A stretch of 64,000 nucleotides of DNA. Source: Candidatus Krumholzibacteriota bacterium (lineage in GTDB: Bacteria > Krumholzibacteriota > Krumholzibacteriia > JAJRXK01). The notes beneath the pieces were generated by a model. That model did not search any database. It was not told where the DNA came from and saw nothing but the letters and a program-made list of their open reading frames with translations. Both the position numbers and the translations under genes were made by a program. Each line of letters opens with the position of its first letter. The first letter of the stretch is position 1. Shown here piece by piece: positions 2,760 to 58,083 of the stretch. The stretch spans positions 62,001-126,000 of the forward strand of contig JAJDAC010000007.1 of the NCBI GenBank assembly GCA_029262065.1, in the 5' to 3' direction.

Positions 2760-2898
2760 GCGATTTCTCCCCTTGGTCCAAGGGCCCACCAGAATCCACT
2801 GGCGTGGAGGGTGGGCAGGGACGGCCCCTCGCGGAGCCAACTTGTTGTGAGCCCGAGGCCCCGGGTGCCAGAAGCACCCGGTTTCCCGGAGCCAGGTG
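2760..2898 (-). promoter_or_regulatory. Leader of the S6-S18-L9 operon with a stable hairpin; possible ribosomal protein leader
   Basis: About 130 bases separate the predicted promoter from the rpsF GTG. The leader contains a perfect 8-bp hairpin (arms 2861-2868 and 2874-2881, five-base loop) and a GC-rich region before the ribosome binding site. S6-type leaders that bind an S6:S18 complex are known in several phyla, but I cannot verify the diagnostic bulged CCG geometry here, so the assignment is tentative. Confidence 0.35.
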
Positions 2899-2927
2899 AG
2901 GATAGCGGCCCCGTCGTGGGGCCGCAA
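2899..2927 (-). promoter_or_regulatory. Sigma-70-like promoter for the rpsF operon
   Basis: On the minus strand, TTGCGG (-35) is followed by a 17-base spacer and TATCCT (-10). The spacer contains a GC-rich inverted repeat that extends into the -35 box (GCGGCCCC and GGGGCCGC). Spacing and position upstream of rpsF fit; it is unproven experimentally. Confidence 0.45.
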
Positions 2928-2962
2928 CCTACCAGGTGAATTCGACCGGTCCTGGACCACTG

Positions 2963-2983
2963 GACCCCGGCTTTGCCGGGGTC
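2963..2983 (-). terminator. GC-rich hairpin downstream of hppA
   Basis: This is a perfect 9-bp stem (GACCCCGGC / GCCGGGGTC) closing a TTT loop, between the hppA stop and the rpsF promoter. There is no clear U tract on the minus strand, so it is a candidate rather than a canonical Rho-independent terminator. Confidence 0.4.
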
Positions 2984-2994
2984 GTCGTCGCCGC

Positions 2995-3036
2995 CATCCC
3001 AGCTAAGCCTCGGCTGCGCCGGGCTTAGCTGGGATG
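2995..3036 (-). terminator. Long inverted repeat just after the hppA stop
   Basis: The perfect 15-bp arms (2995-3009 and 3022-3036) begin 8 bases after the hppA stop codon on the minus strand. The 12-base loop itself can form a small CGGC/GCCG stem. No U tract follows; it may end transcription or stabilise the 3' end of the hppA message. Confidence 0.5.
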
Positions 3037-3043
3037 ACCGCTC

Positions 3044-5086
<2,043 letters not shown>

Positions 5087-49753: not shown

Positions 49754-49855
49754 GATAGCCTGCGCCGGTACATTGCGGCACAAGCTCTCCCGAGCTGGCT
49801 CGAAGATAGCCTGCGCCGGTACATTGCGGCGCAAGCTCTCCCGAGCTGGCTCGGC
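49754..49855 (-). repeat. Two tandem copies of a 51 bp repeat downstream of the lamin-tail protein gene
   Basis: Copies start at 49754 and 49805 and are nearly identical. Each contains GATAGCCTGCGCCGGTACAT, then AAGCTCTCCCGAGCTGGCTCG with a CGAGC/GCTCG hairpin. Between prs and here the core AAGATAGCC.GCGCC is shared. The array lies in the 3' untranslated region and touches the stop codon. Confidence 0.8.
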
Positions 49856-52536
49856 TATTTAATCAAGACCATCTTCATGGTTTCTTCGTAGCCCGAGGCC
49901 GTGACCAGGCGGAAGAAGTAGGTACCGCTGGTAACCTGCTTGCCCGCTTCGTCCAGTCCGTTCCAGGCGTAACCATCGTGCAGACCGGCCTCGAGGACAT
50001 CCTCGACTACCGTGCGCACGAGCTGGCCACGCAGGTTGAACACGCGCAGGGCCACGTGCTCACGATCCTTCAGCGTGAAGCGGAAGGTCGTGATGGGGTT
50101 GAACGGGTTCGGATAATTGCCAAACAACTTGTTGGCGGAAATGACCGTCGGCGGAGCCGGGGTGGTCGTGTCGTTCATGCTACCCGGGGTGCCACGATCG
50201 CCGGTGCCGAACAGCGGAGCACCCGTGCCCGACCAGTTCGCGCCGATGTTGTTGTCGGCCTGCGTCTCGTCGAACTGCATGGACTGACCACTGGGGTCGG
50301 GCCACAGCGTGCCGCCGTCGTATTCGACGCGATCCACCTCTTGCAGCGACGCGTTGAGCAGGATGACCTCGTCGGCCGAGTTACCCAACGTGATACCCGC
50401 GTAGGTGTAGAGCGCGGTGATGCCTTCAGCCACCAGGGCCGCACCGTTGCGCGCCAGAACCGCGTACGCACCGGCCGCGACGTTCAGCGCGCCGCCCGAA
50501 GCGATCACGTGCGACTCACCACCCGCGTCCTGGATGGTCCAGCCCTCGATATCGACGGTGGATGCACCCGCGTTGTAGATCTCGAACCATTCGCCGTCGG
50601 TGTCCGACAGGACGAATGGGTTCTGCATGATCTCGTTGATACGGACCAACTCGGGCGCGGCGGGATCGAACACCGGCAGACATTCCTGCGCCGCTTGCGC
50701 GTTGCCCGCAGTGTCTTCGACGTTCTCGGCGCACACGGTGTAGGCCACGCCCGCCGAAAGCGCCGAGCCGAGGGTCAGCACCACGTCGGTGCCGGCCACG
50801 TTGGCCGCGGTCACGGACACGGTGTTGGCCGGGGTCGCCGTCTCGAACACGGAGTAGTTCCCCGTGGTACCGCCGGTGACCGGATCGATCGCCTCGTCCC
50901 AGCCCAGGGTGATCTCCGAGGCGCCGCTGATGTCGGCCGTCAACAGAACCGGAGGACAGACATCGCCGGTGATGCCACCAGCCGAAATTTCCGACGCCGA
51001 ACAGACCAGAATCTGTCCCTGGCCACCGAAGTTCGCGCCCGCACCCGAAGCAGTGAGCTGCTGGCCCACCACGTAGGGTACCGGCTGGGCCACCACGTCG
51101 GCATCGATACGAATGATCACCGGACCCGAACAATCGGTGATGGTGACGTTCGTGGCCGTGGCCGACGACGAATCGATATCGGAGATGACACCGCTCGCCT
51201 CGATGTACGTTCCTTCGTTGCTCGCGGCGGCGGCGGCCAGCGTCGAGGCCTGTACGGCCGGACTCAGCGGCGGGTTGCCGGAGCTGATCAATTCAACCTC
51301 GTAGCTCACGATTTCCACCGTCGTGAAGAACACGGCCACGGTACCGGTGATCTTCACGATGTTGCCCGTGTTGTTCAGATCGGTGAAACCGGTGCTGAAG
51401 TTGGTGCCAAAGAGGTTGATACCACGACCCGAGGCGTCCTGGACGTAGCCGCTGACGTTGCCGTCGTTGCGATAGTCACCCGGGCAATACACCTGTCCCT
51501 GGATCTGCACGACGGTGCCCGTCAAGGCCCCGAGATTCGCGTGGATGTCGGCGATGGGCGTGATGGTCTCGGGCGCAACGGTGTAGTCGAACAGCGTGGT
51601 GGGCGCGTCCGAGGGGTTGGTCCCCGTGCCCCCGTCGTTGTCCGTGGCTTCCACGTAGTACTCCACAAAGGCACCGTTGACTTGACCCGGAATGGTGGCT
51701 TCCCACGAACCGGCGTTGTCGACCATGGCTACCTGGGTGAATAAGAATGCTCCATCCACGCGGTAGAAAAGACTGACACCGGTGACCGTGCCGTCCTGGT
51801 CGGCGGCTTCGGTGGATACCAGCGCCGCCTCACCCGGGATGGGCAACAGCGGACGATGGATGGTGTTGTCGGCGGTGGGCGGTACCAGACACTGGTTGGC
51901 CACGCCGGGCGTGTCGTTCACACCGACGGTGAAATCACCAATGAGAAAGCCGCCGGGGCAGCGAAACACGTGAGCGGGGACGAATGTACCGTCCGGACCC
52001 ACGGTGTCGGCGCCGTAGACACATTCGCCCGAGGCCGGGATGTCGAAGGTCTCCACGAGCGCGATGCTGTCCACGATGCTCGTCCAAGGCGTCACGTCAA
52101 AGGCACAGTCGTCGTTGGTGTCCAGGTCGTCACCGTTCGCACCGGTGAAACCGCTGACGATCATGTGCGTGACGTTGTCGCTGTTCTCGAAGTTCAGGTC
52201 GGTGACCACATCGGCGGTACCGAGCGTGAACGTGTCTTCGGCAATGACCAGGAAGCCCGAGCCGTTCAGCGACAGAGCGCCGAGGTCGAGGACAAACTCG
52301 ATCGTGCCACTGGCGGTGGCCCCGTCACCGATGACCAGGTAGGTCAGTCCGGCCAGACTCTCGTTGTTGGCGCCAATGAACTCGACGTACTCGTCCACGT
52401 CGGCGCCGACATTATCGATGCGGATTTCGTTGATCTGCACGGCGCTCGCGGGAGCGGCCATGAAACAGAAGGAAGCCAGGAATAGCGTCAGTGCACCCAA
52501 CAAAGGGGCACCGGCAATGCAATTACGGAGGCGCAT
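49855..52536 (-). CDS. Large exported protein with lamin-tail, OB-fold and FlgD-like sorting domains
   Basis: The 893-residue protein has a signal peptide (cleavage near ASA, residue 32). In order, I see: a lamin-tail domain (VQINEIRIDNVGADVDEYVEFIG, 33-180), a YhcR-type OB-fold (ITPIADIHANLGALTGTVVQI to EVELI, about 320-415), an Ig-like domain with DVVLTLGSALSAGVAYTVCAENV (530-620), a second lamin-tail domain (LVRINEIMQNPFVLSDTDGEWFEIY, 630-760), and a C-terminal FlgD/T9SS-like sorting domain (KLFGNYPNPFNPITTFRF, then YFFRLVTASG). Such combinations occur in cell-surface proteins and secreted nucleases, but no nuclease motif is visible here. The ATG at 52536 begins the signal peptide. Confidence 0.85.
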   Translation of the reverse strand: MRLRNCIAGAPLLGALTLFLASFCFMAAPASAVQINEIRIDNVGADVDEYVEFIGANNESLAGLTYLVIGDGATASGTIEFVLDLGALSLNGSGFLVIAEDTFTLGTADVVTDLNFENSDNVTHMIVSGFTGANGDDLDTNDDCAFDVTPWTSIVDSIALVETFDIPASGECVYGADTVGPDGTFVPAHVFRCPGGFLIGDFTVGVNDTPGVANQCLVPPTADNTIHRPLLPIPGEAALVSTEAADQDGTVTGVSLFYRVDGAFLFTQVAMVDNAGSWEATIPGQVNGAFVEYYVEATDNDGGTGTNPSDAPTTLFDYTVAPETITPIADIHANLGALTGTVVQIQGQVYCPGDYRNDGNVSGYVQDASGRGINLFGTNFSTGFTDLNNTGNIVKITGTVAVFFTTVEIVSYEVELISSGNPPLSPAVQASTLAAAAASNEGTYIEASGVISDIDSSSATATNVTITDCSGPVIIRIDADVVAQPVPYVVGQQLTASGAGANFGGQGQILVCSASEISAGGITGDVCPPVLLTADISGASEITLGWDEAIDPVTGGTTGNYSVFETATPANTVSVTAANVAGTDVVLTLGSALSAGVAYTVCAENVEDTAGNAQAAQECLPVFDPAAPELVRINEIMQNPFVLSDTDGEWFEIYNAGASTVDIEGWTIQDAGGESHVIASGGALNVAAGAYAVLARNGAALVAEGITALYTYAGITLGNSADEVILLNASLQEVDRVEYDGGTLWPDPSGQSMQFDETQADNNIGANWSGTGAPLFGTGDRGTPGSMNDTTTPAPPTVISANKLFGNYPNPFNPITTFRFTLKDREHVALRVFNLRGQLVRTVVEDVLEAGLHDGYAWNGLDEAGKQVTSGTYFFRLVTASGYEETMKMVLIK

Positions 52537-52688
52537 ATGGGTCGCTTTCTCCAGTGATGTCAGGCCAGGGCAGAACCTGTGGTGATGGTTGGCAAACGGA
52601 TGGATACCGCATTTTATCACAACCACCGCAAACTGATAGGGAAGCTGCGTCCAGGAACGTCCAAATGTTGTGATCGGTACTCCTATAT

Positions 52689-53297
52689 TCACCTTTTTTG
52701 CGATGGGTCCAGAGCCAGGACATCCTTCCACTGTGACCGGTACAGAAGAGCAGCCAGCGCGATCGGGACCACGAAAAGACCCACTTCGCGAAAAAACATG
52801 TCCACGAAGTAGGCAGACCACCCACGCCAATTGTCAAACAGGCCCAGGAACGGCTCGACGTCCAGATTGGCGTATCCCAGGTGGACCCGAGCGACCAGGA
52901 TCAACAGGGCCAGGATCCCGGTAATCAAGGTCCCCAGGGCCAACCCCAGCAGTCGATCGCGGATGGCAAGCTTGGGCACCGCCGCCATCAGTCCCCACCA
53001 CACGGGCCCGCCTTGCACCAGGTGATCCACGCGCACGGTGGGCGTGCGGGGGACGCGCGCCGTGAACTCGTGGAAGACCTGAAGGGTCTGACCGCCCTCG
53101 ATGAGCTCCAGGTGATCGGTCAGCGGGGTCGGCTCGAAGGTCCGCAGGATGCCCTCGCCCAGAGGCACATAGAGCGGCGACCACCATGGCAGGGTAGACC
53201 GAAGAAGCACCCAGCCTGCCCCCATTCCCAACACGAATCGAAGTGCCAACCACAGCATTGGCCGCCAACGAATGCCGTGGAGGCGGGATTCGCTCAT
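52689..53297 (-). CDS. Exosortase H-associated membrane protein
   Basis: The 202-residue protein has an N-terminal membrane segment (ALRFVLGMGAGWVLL), a periplasmic stretch, and two more hydrophobic segments near the C-terminus (GLALGTLITGILALLILVARV and FFREVGLFVVPIALAALLYRS). It contains no known catalytic motif. The start overlaps the exosortase stop by 4 bases (ATGA), so the two are translationally coupled. A hydrophobic partner of this size beside exosortase H matches the associated membrane protein described for that system; I rely on context and topology more than sequence identity. Confidence 0.72.
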   Translation of the reverse strand: MSESRLHGIRWRPMLWLALRFVLGMGAGWVLLRSTLPWWSPLYVPLGEGILRTFEPTPLTDHLELIEGGQTLQVFHEFTARVPRTPTVRVDHLVQGGPVWWGLMAAVPKLAIRDRLLGLALGTLITGILALLILVARVHLGYANLDVEPFLGLFDNWRGWSAYFVDMFFREVGLFVVPIALAALLYRSQWKDVLALDPSQKR

Positions 53298-53836
53298 GAC
53301 GCCCGCGCGGGTGGCGGGGGTGGGGGAAGCGCCCACTTGAGATACACGATGAACACACCCACGGTGGCCACGATCAGTACCGCCTGCCAGAAGAAGAGGT
53401 GCGACAGGTCAAACATGCCGGGCAGGTATCGGCCCGTCAGAAACAGGCCGACGATTCGGGACAGGTTGATGATCGAAAGCAGCGGTAGCCCCACGGCCAA
53501 CCCCGCGAGCTTGGATCGCAACGGGGCTGGGAACGCCACGACCGCCGCCGTGAACAGCACCCACAGATCGGTGCCGTTGCAGACATTGAGCACGCGAACC
53601 GCGAACACGCCGTCGTCGATGACCTCGGCCTGACCGCCAACGGCCGGCAGGAACAGCGACAACAGCCCTCGGCTCAGCCGGGTGACCAGGCTTGTGTAGT
53701 CGCCCAGAAACCACCTGGTGGTGGCCGGCAAAGCCAGCCCTGCGTGGAGCGCGAAGGCCACCACCAGGAAGATTCCGACCGAGGCCCATGGCCCCCGATA
53801 CCAAGCATGTTTGGATTCTCTTTGGGCTTCCGACAT
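53294..53836 (-). CDS. xrtH: Exosortase (exosortase H type)
   Basis: The 180-residue multi-pass membrane protein has the three active-site residues of exosortases in order: Cys86 in LNVCNGTD, Arg127 in LSRIVGLF and His146 in DLSHLFFWQ. Exosortases cut and transfer proteins that carry PEP-CTERM-like tails. The next gene across the divergent promoter ends in an IPTL-CTERM signal, the target of the H class. The second Met (53836) is used; the frame has another Met 8 codons earlier. Membrane segments lie at about 18-36, 52-64, 90-104, 111-132 and 148-168. Confidence 0.88.
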   Translation of the reverse strand: MSEAQRESKHAWYRGPWASVGIFLVVAFALHAGLALPATTRWFLGDYTSLVTRLSRGLLSLFLPAVGGQAEVIDDGVFAVRVLNVCNGTDLWVLFTAAVVAFPAPLRSKLAGLAVGLPLLSIINLSRIVGLFLTGRYLPGMFDLSHLFFWQAVLIVATVGVFIVYLKWALPPPPPPARAS

Positions 53837-53874
53837 AGCTGACTCTCTGCGAGGTCTCATTCTGGCAAGGATCT

Positions 53875-53904
53875 TTGCACTTTCGCGGCCGAGCCGCCTA
53901 TACT
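53875..53904 (+). promoter_or_regulatory. Sigma-70-like promoter of the IPTL-CTERM cupredoxin gene
   Basis: TTGCAC (53875-53880), an 18-base spacer and TATACT (53899-53904). The spacer holds the inverted repeat GCGGC-CGA-GCCGC, a possible operator, and the predicted transcript start falls in GGGGA-CTC-TCCCC, another small palindrome. Confidence 0.6.
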
Positions 53905-53940
53905 AGGGGGACTCTCCCCAACCCTTCAAGGAGGCAACAA

Positions 53941-54387
53941 GTGCCTTTGTATCGCATCGCGCTCGCCGCGCTGGTTAGTGGTCTGCTGGCGACTCCTGCT
54001 CTCGCTGCCACCGTCCAGGTCAACCAGGTCGGACTCACGTTCGACCCCGCCGACATCACCATCAACGTAGGTGACACCGTGGAATGGGTCTGGACCACCG
54101 GGGTCCACACCGTCACCAACGGGACCGGCGCGGCTGACCCCAACGTTGGCATCCTGTTCGATGATGCCCTTACGGTCGGCAACCCGACCCCAAGCTATAC
54201 TTTCACCACCGTGGGCGACGTGGACTACTTCTGTCGACCTCACGAGTTCTTCAATATGAATGGCATCATTCGTGTGCAGTCGGTCGGCCAGCCCGTGCCC
54301 ACGCTGGGCGAATGGGCATTCGGAGCGACGGCCTTGCTGATGCTCGCCGCCGGTTTCGTGATGGCCCGGCGACGATCCATCGCCTGA
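53941..54387 (+). CDS. Cupredoxin with IPTL-CTERM sorting signal, candidate exosortase H substrate
   Basis: The 148-residue protein has a signal peptide (to about residue 22), a plastocyanin-like domain (VNQVGLTFDPADITINVGDTVEWVW) and the full type 1 copper ligand set: His56 in GVHTV, Cys98, His101 and Met106 in YFCRPHEFFNM. It ends with VPTLGEWA (119-126), a hydrophobic helix and MARRRS. This tripartite tail is the IPTL-CTERM sorting signal, with Ala in place of the usual final Gly of IPTLxxWG. Start is GTG at 53941 after a perfect AAGGAGG. Diverges from the exosortase gene. Likely an electron carrier fixed to the cell envelope. Confidence 0.88.
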   Translation: MPLYRIALAALVSGLLATPALAATVQVNQVGLTFDPADITINVGDTVEWVWTTGVHTVTNGTGAADPNVGILFDDALTVGNPTPSYTFTTVGDVDYFCRPHEFFNMNGIIRVQSVGQPVPTLGEWAFGATALLMLAAGFVMARRRSIA

Positions 54388-54411
54388 GTCGAAACCCGCA
54401 GCAACGATTGG

Positions 54412-54439
54412 AAGGGGGCCCCTTGGGGCCCCCTTTTTT
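54412..54439 (+). terminator. Rho-independent terminator after the cupredoxin gene
   Basis: An 11-bp stem (AAGGGGGCCCC / GGGGCCCCCTT) with a TT loop is followed by T6 counting the stem end. It lies 25 bases after the stop codon. A textbook plus-strand terminator that isolates the cupredoxin as a single-gene unit. Confidence 0.9.
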
Positions 54440-54556
54440 CTTGTCACACCGACTCGGCGTGGACCAAACACCGGTTGGACTGGTGTTAACCCCGCGATGT
54501 GATAGGTTTTCGATCAACTCCCCTGAGCCTTCTAGTTGAATAAGGAGAAGGATGCC

Positions 54557-55546
54557 ATGAGCCAGGGACCGTTTGGCGAAGACCTGAACATGCGAACGAT
54601 CCAGGTGCCCAGGCCCCAAGGCCGCATCGTGGCCCTGGTCGTAGTGGCCATCGTGGCGTTCGTCGTGATCAGTTCGTCGTTCTACACCGTGGACCCAGAA
54701 GAAATCGGCGTGGTCATGCGCTTCGGCAAGTTCGTACGCGACACCGACCCCGGTTTACATTTCAAGCTGCCAGCCGGAATCGAAACCGTTGAGAAAGTGC
54801 CCATACAACGGCAGAAGAAAGTGGAATTCGGGTTCCGCACGCGAGAACCCGGAATACGAACGCAATACACCACCGCCGGATTCACCGACGAATCATTGAT
54901 GCTGACCGGCGACCTCAACGCTGCCGTGGTGGATTGGGTGGTTCAGTACCGCATCACCGACCCCTTCATGTATCTGTTCAAAGTTCGTGACGTGGACAAC
55001 ACCTTCCGGGCCATGACCGAGGCGGTCATGCGGAAGGTGGTCGGAGACCGTACGGTCAACGAGGTCCTTACCATCGGTCGTCAGGAAGTAGCCGACCTCA
55101 TCGAGGTCCAACTGCAGGAATTATGCGAGCAATACGAAATCGGCATCAAGGTCGACCAGGTCGTGCTGCAGGATGTGAACCCGCCGGACCCGGTGAAACC
55201 TTCGTTCAACGAAGTGAACGAGGCGCAACAGGAGCGCGAGAAGCTCATCAATGAGGCGCAGTCCGAGTACAACCGCGTAATTCCCCGCGCACTGGGCGAA
55301 GCCCAACAAACCATCCAGGTAGCCGAGGGCTACGCGCTCGATCGCGTCAACCGCGCCGAGGGCGAAGCCAACCGATTCGCGTCGATCTTCGACGCCTACC
55401 GCCTATCCCCCGAAGTGACGCGCAAGCGCATCTATCTCGAAACCATGGGCGAGGTGCTTCCCAAGGTGAAGAACAAGATCATCGTCGATGGAGATCTCAA
55501 GGGAGTTCTTCCGCTTCTGAACCTGAACCCGGGCGGAGGTGAGTGA
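54557..55546 (+). CDS. hflK: HflK, SPFH-domain subunit of the FtsH modulator
   Basis: The 329-residue protein has one N-terminal membrane helix (VALVVVAIVAFVVISSSFYTV) and a band-7/SPFH domain: EEIGVVMRFGKFVRDTDPGLHFKLP, then LTGDLNAAVVDWVVQYRITDP, and the coiled-coil region with YNRVIPRALGEAQQTI..AEGYALDRVNRAEGEANRF. HflK and HflC form a ring that limits FtsH proteolysis of membrane proteins; ftsH is not in the window. ATG at 54557 is used with AAGGAG upstream. Confidence 0.92.
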   Translation: MSQGPFGEDLNMRTIQVPRPQGRIVALVVVAIVAFVVISSSFYTVDPEEIGVVMRFGKFVRDTDPGLHFKLPAGIETVEKVPIQRQKKVEFGFRTREPGIRTQYTTAGFTDESLMLTGDLNAAVVDWVVQYRITDPFMYLFKVRDVDNTFRAMTEAVMRKVVGDRTVNEVLTIGRQEVADLIEVQLQELCEQYEIGIKVDQVVLQDVNPPDPVKPSFNEVNEAQQEREKLINEAQSEYNRVIPRALGEAQQTIQVAEGYALDRVNRAEGEANRFASIFDAYRLSPEVTRKRIYLETMGEVLPKVKNKIIVDGDLKGVLPLLNLNPGGGE

Positions 55547-56487
55547 TGCGGTACTTCTACATCTTCCTGGTGGTCTTCGGCGCCATACTACTGAACAGCG
55601 GTGTATTCGTGGTCAACGAGCGACACCAGGCCATCATCACCCGTCTGGGCAAGCCGGTGCGCGAACCCATCACCACGCCGGGCTTGAAATTCAAGATGCC
55701 CTTTCTCGAGAAAGTCCATCGGTTCGACAAGCGATTCCTGGAATGGGACGGGGACCAGAACGAACTGCCCACGAAGGACAAACGGTTCATCTGGGTCGAC
55801 ACCTACGCACGATGGAGAATCAGCGATCCGCTGCTGTTCTTCCAACGTCTGCGCGACGAGCGCGGAGCTCAGATGCGACTGGATGACATCCTCGACGGTG
55901 AAACGCGCAACGCCATTGCGAACAACAACCTCGTCGAGGTCATTCGAACTTCCAATCGTGAGCCAGAGGTCGACCCGCTGACGGCCGACGACGAATCGGG
56001 ACTCGCACCGATCTTGGTGGGACGCGAGGTCATTCGCATGGAAGTGCTCACCAAGGCGCAGACACGCACCTCGGACCTGGGCATCGAGATCCTGGACGTT
56101 CAGTTCAAGCGTATCAACTACGTCGAAGAGGTGCGCTTGAAGGTCTACGAGCGCATGATCGCCGAGCGCCGGAGAATCGCCGATCGATTCCGCTCCGAGG
56201 GTCAAGGTGAAGCGTCGCGTATCCTGGGTGAGAAGGATCGTGAACTCAAACGCATCCAGTCCGAAGCCTACCGAACGGCGCAGGAAATCGTGGGTCGGGC
56301 CGACGCCGAAGCTACGCAGATCTATGCGCGAGCCTACGACCGTTCGCCGGACAGCCGGGCGTTCTACGAGTACGTCCGGACCATGGAGAGCTACGCGACC
56401 ACACTGGATGCGGAGACCTCGCTGATACTCTCGTCCGATGGCGAGTTCTACAAGTTCCTCAAGCAGTCCGATTTGGGCGGCAACTAG
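55546..56487 (+). CDS. hflC: HflC, SPFH-domain partner of HflK
   Basis: The 313-residue protein shares the N-terminal helix and SPFH domain (VVNERHQAIITRLGKPVREPITTPGLKFKMPF), WVDTYARWRISDPLLFF, and the ERRRIADRFRSEGQGEASRI..EKDRELKRI coiled coil, then FYKFLKQ at the end as in other HflC. The ATG at 55546 overlaps the hflK stop by one base and has GGAGG 5 bases before it; a GTG one codon earlier would overlap by four. Confidence 0.92.
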   Translation: MRYFYIFLVVFGAILLNSGVFVVNERHQAIITRLGKPVREPITTPGLKFKMPFLEKVHRFDKRFLEWDGDQNELPTKDKRFIWVDTYARWRISDPLLFFQRLRDERGAQMRLDDILDGETRNAIANNNLVEVIRTSNREPEVDPLTADDESGLAPILVGREVIRMEVLTKAQTRTSDLGIEILDVQFKRINYVEEVRLKVYERMIAERRRIADRFRSEGQGEASRILGEKDRELKRIQSEAYRTAQEIVGRADAEATQIYARAYDRSPDSRAFYEYVRTMESYATTLDAETSLILSSDGEFYKFLKQSDLGGN

Positions 56488-56499
56488 GAAACCGGTATT

Positions 56500-56523
56500 C
56501 CCCGGGGGAGATTGCCCCCGGGG
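56500..56523 (+). promoter_or_regulatory. Hairpin holding the likely ribosome binding site of the adenylate cyclase gene
   Basis: Perfect 9-bp arms CCCCGGGGG / CCCCCGGGG with loop AGATTG. The GGGG of the right arm plus the next AAA is the only ribosome-binding-like sequence before the ATG at 56536, so the stem could block translation initiation. It may alternatively be the hflKC terminator, but no U tract follows. Confidence 0.5.
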
Positions 56524-56535
56524 AAATCGCTGCGC

Positions 56536-58083
56536 ATGACGCTCCATCGCCGTTTCGCACTCTCTTTCGTCCTCATCCTGGTGCTCGTGGGAGTAGCCGC
56601 GGGACTGCACGCCTGGAACTCGGCCCGGGTCGCGCAGCGACTGGATGATTTCGAGACCAGCGTGCGCGACGAAGAACGCGTGCGGGACCTACGCCTGGAG
56701 ATCGAGCGCCTCCACAAGGAGCTGGAGTCGCTGCCGTCACTCCTCAAAGGCGATGACGAGCGCGAGACTGCGCGCCAGGAAAACCGCTTTGCCGCGCGCG
56801 TGCAAGCCTCCTTGGATCGCATCGAAACGCTTGCGCAGGGCGTTACCGGCCACGGTCTACAGCCCGAGCTCGGGCGATGGAGTCAGGCCTGGGCTAGCTA
56901 TCCCGAACGGGCAAGAGACGACCTGGCCGCCGCCACCGACTCGTTGCGAGCGTCCACTTTGAGCCCCTACCGAAAAATGGCGCACGAGACGCTGCCGGCG
57001 TTGAGCCGCCGGGCATCGTTGCGTCGTGGAGCCTCGTGGACCGGCGCGCAGCCCGACAATGCCGATCTATGGTTGTTCCTGCTGCTGGGCGGGCTGGCGT
57101 TGATATGCGTACTACTGGCGGTGTCCGGACTCTCCACGTTCCGCTCCCGATTCCGTACGCTGCTCCACGGCGCCGCGGCCATCGGCGGCGGTGATCTACA
57201 CCATGTCATCAAGTTGCGGGGGAAAGACGAATTCACCGATCTGGGTCGCGTGTTCAACAACATGTCCCACGACCTCCAACTGACCCAGCGCCAGCTCACC
57301 ATGAGCAATCAGGAGTTGGAGAAACGAAACAAGGAAATCGACGAGCAGCGGAAGGTGAGCGAATCGCTGCTCCGCAACATCTTGCCCGCCGAAATCGCCG
57401 ACGAGCTCAGTGCCAAAGGCGAGGTAACGCCGAAGCTCTTCGACGACGTCAGCATTCTGTTCACCGATTTCGTGGGATTCACGCCGTCCACCGAATCACT
57501 GGGCGCGCAGGAGCTGGTGCGGTACCTGAACGGATACTTCACCGACTTCGACAAGATCGCACGCCGGTACCGTCTGGAAAAACTGAAGACGATCGGCGAC
57601 AGCTACATGTGCGCCGGCGGTCTGCCTGCTCCCCGGGCTTCGCATGCGGTCGACACGGTACTGGCCGCGCTCGAGATGGTGCACGTCGTCCGCGACCGGG
57701 CCACGCGCGCCGACCAACCCGGTTGGGCCGTACGCCTGGGCATCCACAGCGGACCCGTCGTAGCCGGCGTGGTTGGCATCGACAAATTCGCGTTCGACAT
57801 CTGGGGCAAGACCGTGAACTTCAGTAGCCGGGTGGAAACCACCGGCGCGCCCGACCGCATCAACATCTCGACCGAGACCTACGAGCGCGTGAAGGATCTA
57901 TTCGACTGCGAGGCGCGTGGCAAGGTCCGAACAAAAGAACAGCGCGAGTTCGACATGTACTTCGTTCGCGGCGTCCACCCCCACCTGCTCGACGAAAAAG
58001 TAGCGGGAGTTCCGTCGGGTTTCCTACAAGCCTACCAGCGCGCCTACAACGCACAGCCGCCCGCGTTTCCCAGCTTCTTGTAG
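56536..58083 (+). CDS. Membrane-bound class III adenylate cyclase with HAMP domain
   Basis: The 515-residue protein has two membrane helices (about 6-26 and 176-198) enclosing a periplasmic helical sensor region, then HAMP (LLHGAAAIGGGDLHHVIKL), a coiled coil (LEKRNKEIDEQRKVSESLLRNILP) and the cyclase domain. Catalytic residues: metal Asp in ILFTDFVGFT, substrate Lys in LKTIGDSYM, Asp in FDIWGKTVNFSSR, and the Asn and Arg of the latter. Lys plus Asp at the purine site favours ATP over GTP. Downstream of hflC by 48 bases. Signal sensed unknown. Confidence 0.9.
   Translation: MTLHRRFALSFVLILVLVGVAAGLHAWNSARVAQRLDDFETSVRDEERVRDLRLEIERLHKELESLPSLLKGDDERETARQENRFAARVQASLDRIETLAQGVTGHGLQPELGRWSQAWASYPERARDDLAAATDSLRASTLSPYRKMAHETLPALSRRASLRRGASWTGAQPDNADLWLFLLLGGLALICVLLAVSGLSTFRSRFRTLLHGAAAIGGGDLHHVIKLRGKDEFTDLGRVFNNMSHDLQLTQRQLTMSNQELEKRNKEIDEQRKVSESLLRNILPAEIADELSAKGEVTPKLFDDVSILFTDFVGFTPSTESLGAQELVRYLNGYFTDFDKIARRYRLEKLKTIGDSYMCAGGLPAPRASHAVDTVLAALEMVHVVRDRATRADQPGWAVRLGIHSGPVVAGVVGIDKFAFDIWGKTVNFSSRVETTGAPDRINISTETYERVKDLFDCEARGKVRTKEQREFDMYFVRGVHPHLLDEKVAGVPSGFLQAYQRAYNAQPPAFPSFL

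Follow-up and report, generated by a model that had tools for sequence, protein, structure and literature searches.

An XrtH-like exosortase gene pair and a divergently encoded cupredoxin with an IPTL-CTERM tail in Candidatus Krumholzibacteriota

Related sorting systems and layout of the locus

Reports on exosortases and on archaeosortase A are the source of a scheme in which proteins are exported, arrested in the membrane, cleaved and transferred (PMC12188702, PMC7157517). For the archaeosortase A of Haloferax volcanii, processing at the C-terminus accompanied by lipid attachment has been reported (PMC7157517). In Flavobacterium johnsoniae, XrtF and the exosortase F system-associated protein both came up as colonisation genes (PMC10936215), and an IPTL-CTERM tail has been noted on an S-layer protein (PMC8671808). 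Among the papers accessible to the search, there was no direct precedent for the pairing of an exosortase with a cupredoxin, and no description of a characterised XrtH enzyme-cargo pair.

The locus described here lies in a 64,000-nt stretch of a Candidatus Krumholzibacteriota genome (“the window”), and its features are listed in Table 1. It resembles the exosortase H/IPTL-CTERM system in its best enzyme model, a tripartite tail above the cut-offs, the catalytic triad and a coupled membrane partner. It differs in that the enzyme stays 6 bits under the family cut-off, that the motif is VPTLGEWA instead of IPTLxxWG (two departures, V for I and A for G), and that only two recognisable cargos exist, one of them a cupredoxin adjoining the enzyme. 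Archaeosortase A belongs to the same enzyme superfamily and likewise goes with a tripartite tail, whereas the PGF motif and the archaeal lipid are found on the archaeal side. In the XrtF system, too, the gene of a small exosortase lies next to that of a partner (PMC10936215), but XrtF is of another subfamily, and the likeness of the partners is one of gene position. The cupredoxin shares the fold family and all four type-1 copper ligands with plastocyanin/amicyanin-type proteins (PF00127); in contrast to these, it bears a C-terminal sorting tail. Overall, the locus probably adds a further case, from a poorly studied lineage, to an established type of protein sorting, and its cargo is unusual.

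Table 1. Features of the exosortase/cupredoxin locus, in window coordinates
Feature	Position	Strand	Description
XrtH-like exosortase	53294..53860	(-)	188 aa; Cys94, Arg135, His154; TIGR04177 and TIGR04178 matches; AlphaFold
Alternative start of the exosortase	53836	(-)	second Met; yields 180 aa
Partner membrane protein	52689..53297	(-)	202 aa; putative remote relative of NF041730, exosortase H-associated membrane protein
Cupredoxin	53941..54387	(+)	148 aa; GTG start; PF00127 match
IPTL-CTERM tail of the cupredoxin	54295..54384	(+)	VPTLGEWA, hydrophobic helix, RRR; TIGR04174, PF18203
Shine-Dalgarno-like AAGGAGG	53928..53934	(+)	precedes the cupredoxin GTG; read from sequence
Divergent intergenic region	53861..53940		80 bp between exosortase and cupredoxin; promoters of both units presumed
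Hairpin and T run, intrinsic terminator-like	54410..54437	(+)	3′ of the cupredoxin

The genes, their coupling, the motif, the catalytic residues and the copper ligands can all be read from the DNA. The exosortase and partner genes overlap by four bases (ATGA), with the partner start at 53297 and the exosortase stop ending at 53294. An earlier, sequence-only reading had already described this overlap, and it had placed the catalytic residues at Cys86, Arg127 and His146, which is numbering from the second Met and corresponds to Cys94, Arg135 and His154 of the full ORF. Its description of a cupredoxin on the opposite strand that ends in VPTLGEWA, a hydrophobic helix and RRR holds as well, and the tail scores above both curated cut-offs. 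The GTG at 53941, which AAGGAGG precedes, is most likely the start codon of the cupredoxin gene, rather than an upstream TTG. No sigma-70 consensus was found in the divergent region, and an Rfam search of positions 50000-58000 gave no match.

The neighbouring genes, as read by eye, include an HflK/HflC-like pair and an adenylate-cyclase-like gene. The sequence-only reading had also proposed a link between sorting and respiration; this is still a guess, because no respiratory genes were recognised beside the locus, and nothing that we examined ties the cupredoxin to a respiratory chain. The minus-strand gene at 49855-52830, directly downstream of the exosortase unit, codes for a large protein whose C-terminal domain is of the T9SS type (FNPITTF...VLIK).

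The exosortase and its partner

The window exosortase matches TIGR04177 (exosortase H) with 79.6 bits, which is below the curated cut-off of 86, and it is therefore named XrtH-like here. TIGR04177 is nevertheless its best NCBIfam model, 21 bits ahead of the next one (58.2 bits), and the cut-off of 23 for the exosortase/archaeosortase superfamily model TIGR04178 is passed with 48.9 bits. Of the proposal that the enzyme is an exosortase H, closeness to that family thus stands, and strict membership does not. Cys94, Arg135 and His154 are invariant in an alignment of 16 related exosortases, and the AlphaFold model of the enzyme has a pLDDT of 89.9. Foldseek comparisons of the exosortase and partner models with the PDB gave nothing significant, and a sequence search for a solved exosortase relative found none.

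In the exosortase tree, the window enzyme sits on a long branch whose exact placement is not fixed, and its identity to any relative included is 33% or less. It falls outside a separate, well supported clade (100/99) of the 19 f4 and f5 exosortases, and its nearest neighbours by path are from genomes with IPTL tails. Among the genomes of the f4/f5 clade enzymes, an IPTL tail above the cut-off occurs only in G013, which encodes one exosortase inside the clade and a second outside of it, the latter about 1 kb from an IPTL-tailed gene. For comparison, G079, a genome of the same class as the window, encodes six IPTL tails and an XrtH that passes the cut-off with 97.5 bits; this XrtH scores 24 bits higher with its best model than with the next, versus a difference of 5 bits in the one f4/f5 clade member that was measured.

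The f4/f5 clade, made up of short XrtH-like exosortases, comes from the genomes G010-G030 and G033 (e.g. L063, L066, and L067), which have almost no IPTL tails.

The partner protein (P0002) alone has no family match, and NF041730 (cut-off 35 bits) gave none at E-values up to 1. Its comparison with a partner profile group that contains NF041730 members yielded 91.6% over 166 columns, along its length; the partners of L080 and L088 pass the NF041730 cut-off. The window partner is therefore like NF041730 in position, size and remote profile similarity, and unlike it in that the protein itself does not match the model. By this profile evidence it is a remote relative of the exosortase H-associated membrane protein. 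Such an arrangement is common: among 20 related exosortases of named genomes that are not fused to a partner, 19 have the gene of a membrane protein (about 165-230 aa) close behind their own, in several cases with a start-stop overlap; directly behind the L082 exosortase, no partner could be made out clearly. In a Hydrogenedentes MAG (L095:7392-8942), exosortase and partner are fused to a single protein of 516 aa, while the relatives L093, L094 and L096 have separate genes with an ATGA overlap.

The profile of the partner family matches the exosortase profile with 95% over about 100 columns. A repetition with trimmed alignments gave 91%, versus <1% for reversed controls. Block-shuffled controls reached 39 (A4) and 45 (A6), where 47 and 49 had been observed. 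Taken by itself, the subset that includes accepted NF041730 members attained only 4%. P0002 alone gave 3.6%, which is not significant, so that significance is confined to the family profile. One partner was matched by the XrtH model itself (E 8e-4). The partner AlphaFold model (pLDDT 81.5) has the same order of elements as that of the exosortase, i.e. long N-terminal helices, a beta hairpin, a short helix, and two long helices. The catalytic Cys and His of the exosortase are not conserved among the partners. The partner is thus probably a degenerate exosortase; because the shuffled controls come near the observed values and the NF041730 subset reaches only 4%, this homology is regarded as probable, not as proven.

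The cupredoxin tail and the number of cargos

The cupredoxin matches PF00127 (Pfam Copper-bind) with 40 bits (cut-off 21.2), and its relatives in the PDB are plastocyanin and amicyanin. The type-1 copper ligands His56, Cys98, His101, and Met106 were read from the sequence, and residues 1-22 are a probable signal peptide, as judged by eye. The tail, VPTLGEWA-FGATALLMLAAGFVMA-RRR, scores 25.3 bits with TIGR04174 (cut-off 20.5) and 24.7 bits with PF18203 (Pfam IPTL-CTERM, cut-off 20.8). As had been noted before, no other tail in the window passes.

The HMM search of the whole 5.77-Mb genome gave a different picture from that of a minimal, self-contained system with one cargo. IPTL tails above the cut-off occur in two places only (versus none in 14 control genomes), and the unit is therefore not dedicated to a single cargo. 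The second protein (L002:1474-2424, minus strand, contig 27) has 316 aa, looks secreted, and ends with VGIPSLQTWSMLILSALLVLVGLGHGRRPS...; apart from its tail, no NCBIfam domain scored above the cut-off. In addition to the XrtH-like enzyme, the genome carries an EpsH-type exosortase on contig 14, so that contig 27 encodes neither of the two exosortases. As at least 150 T9SS type A tails are present versus two IPTL tails, XrtH appears to be a minor route in this organism. We estimated the chance that one of two randomly placed tails lies within about 5 kb of the exosortase to be roughly 0.002.

A survey of 80 genomes of the phylum revealed IPTL tails above the cut-off in four of them (kinship ignored). 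In three of the four, an XrtH-like enzyme is encoded that does not belong to the IPTL-free f4/f5 clade; the fourth, G076, is an assembly of 65% completeness. Among named genomes with a related exosortase, 15 of 21 contain IPTL tails (again ignoring kinship), and in L065, L085, and L086 the exosortase is adjoined by an IPTL-like tail. A gene divergent from an XrtH-like exosortase, the layout of the window, is also present at L060:6312-7805 (on the contig of L097); its product ends with GGATPAVGSTGLVVLGLSILTGGGVLVRRSRRGA, which was not scored as IPTL-CTERM.

Proposed sorting, alternatives and exchange of tails

We consider it likely that the two genes form an XrtH-type exosortase unit that sorts the cupredoxin encoded divergently beside it, one of its two recognisable cargos. 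Following what is described for the exosortase and archaeosortase families, the signal peptide would send the copper protein out through Sec, and the C-terminal hydrophobic helix together with RRR would keep it in the inner membrane. VPTLGEWA would then be read by the exosortase, probably in a complex with the partner, which lacks an active site, and the Cys/Arg/His site would cleave close to the motif. The copper domain may finally be handed to an acceptor in the envelope, perhaps a lipid, and be fixed there. This view is supported by the scores of the tail, the invariant triad, the position of one of only two such tails next to the enzyme, the co-occurrence of IPTL tails with related exosortases in other genomes, and the absence of the tail from orthologous cupredoxins where XrtH is missing. 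Against it speak the score below the TIGR04177 cut-off, the long branch and low identity of the enzyme, and the two departures of the motif from IPTLxxWG.

A hydrophobic helix followed by RRR could also anchor a protein unaided. The tail might thus be a plain C-terminal membrane anchor, the cupredoxin remaining unprocessed and the exosortase acting on the contig-27 protein or on an unrecognised cargo. However, the motif-specific models TIGR04174 and PF18203 score the tail above their cut-offs, cupredoxin orthologues without an XrtH neighbour lack it, and it adjoins the exosortase though the genome has just two such tails; we therefore regard a plain anchor as unlikely. The enzyme itself might represent another short-exosortase subfamily with an unknown tag, next to which the IPTL tail stands by coincidence. 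Its score below the XrtH cut-off and the large XrtH-like clade without IPTL tails in the same phylum would fit this explanation, but the window enzyme is not a member of that clade and is close by path to enzymes from IPTL genomes, and its margin of 21 bits resembles that of the G079 XrtH and not that of the measured clade member, which makes such a coincidence quite improbable. Least probable of all, in our judgement, is that the tail is processed by the EpsH-type exosortase, the window enzyme acting on a different substrate. The genome does encode this second exosortase, but of the nine genomes in the phylum that combine an EpsH-type enzyme with no XrtH match, not one has an IPTL tail above the cut-off (kinship ignored), which disfavours processing by EpsH.

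Sorting of the cupredoxin by the XrtH-like unit can be compared with the fate of its relatives. In sister lineages, family f6 genomes that have no XrtH match encode close relatives (44-58% identity). These orthologues lack the IPTL tail; most have a C-terminal domain of the FNPxT/FlgD type (T9SS-like), and the remaining ones end with a few residues of the kind ATWSNVKNLFD or ATWNAVKGLFR, a short tail. An XrtH-like enzyme and 39 IPTL matches are present in a Phycisphaerae MAG, and its cupredoxin, 45% identical, ends with VPTVSEWGLGAMTLVLLAVGTLMLRRR, so that the genome studied here is not alone in having an IPTL tail on a cupredoxin. Because orthologous cupredoxins carry different C-termini, the tail is modular and, as far as sequence comparison can indicate, behaves like a swappable address label.

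A more far-reaching proposal is that the partner is a dead exosortase that associates with the active one and aids cargo recognition, and that the copper protein switches between unrelated routes (XrtH, T9SS-type, and short W-x-x-V-K-x-L-F) by exchange of its C-terminus; we see the chances for and against it as evenly balanced. The copper cargo beside its enzyme, the tail exchange among orthologues and the reading of the partner as a dead exosortase are the less ordinary aspects of the locus. The latter two lead to specific hypotheses on cargo choice by exosortases and on the evolution of surface addresses, and a small redox protein of known fold next to its likely enzyme would be a convenient test pair.

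A short C-terminal peptide, W-x-x-[VI]-K-x-L-[FYW], was observed at L104:1477-1878 and 2887-3327, L108:453-854, L109:1315-1899, and L111:1480-1887. It is found on cupredoxins as well as on an unrelated neighbour protein, and is possibly an undescribed C-terminal tag.
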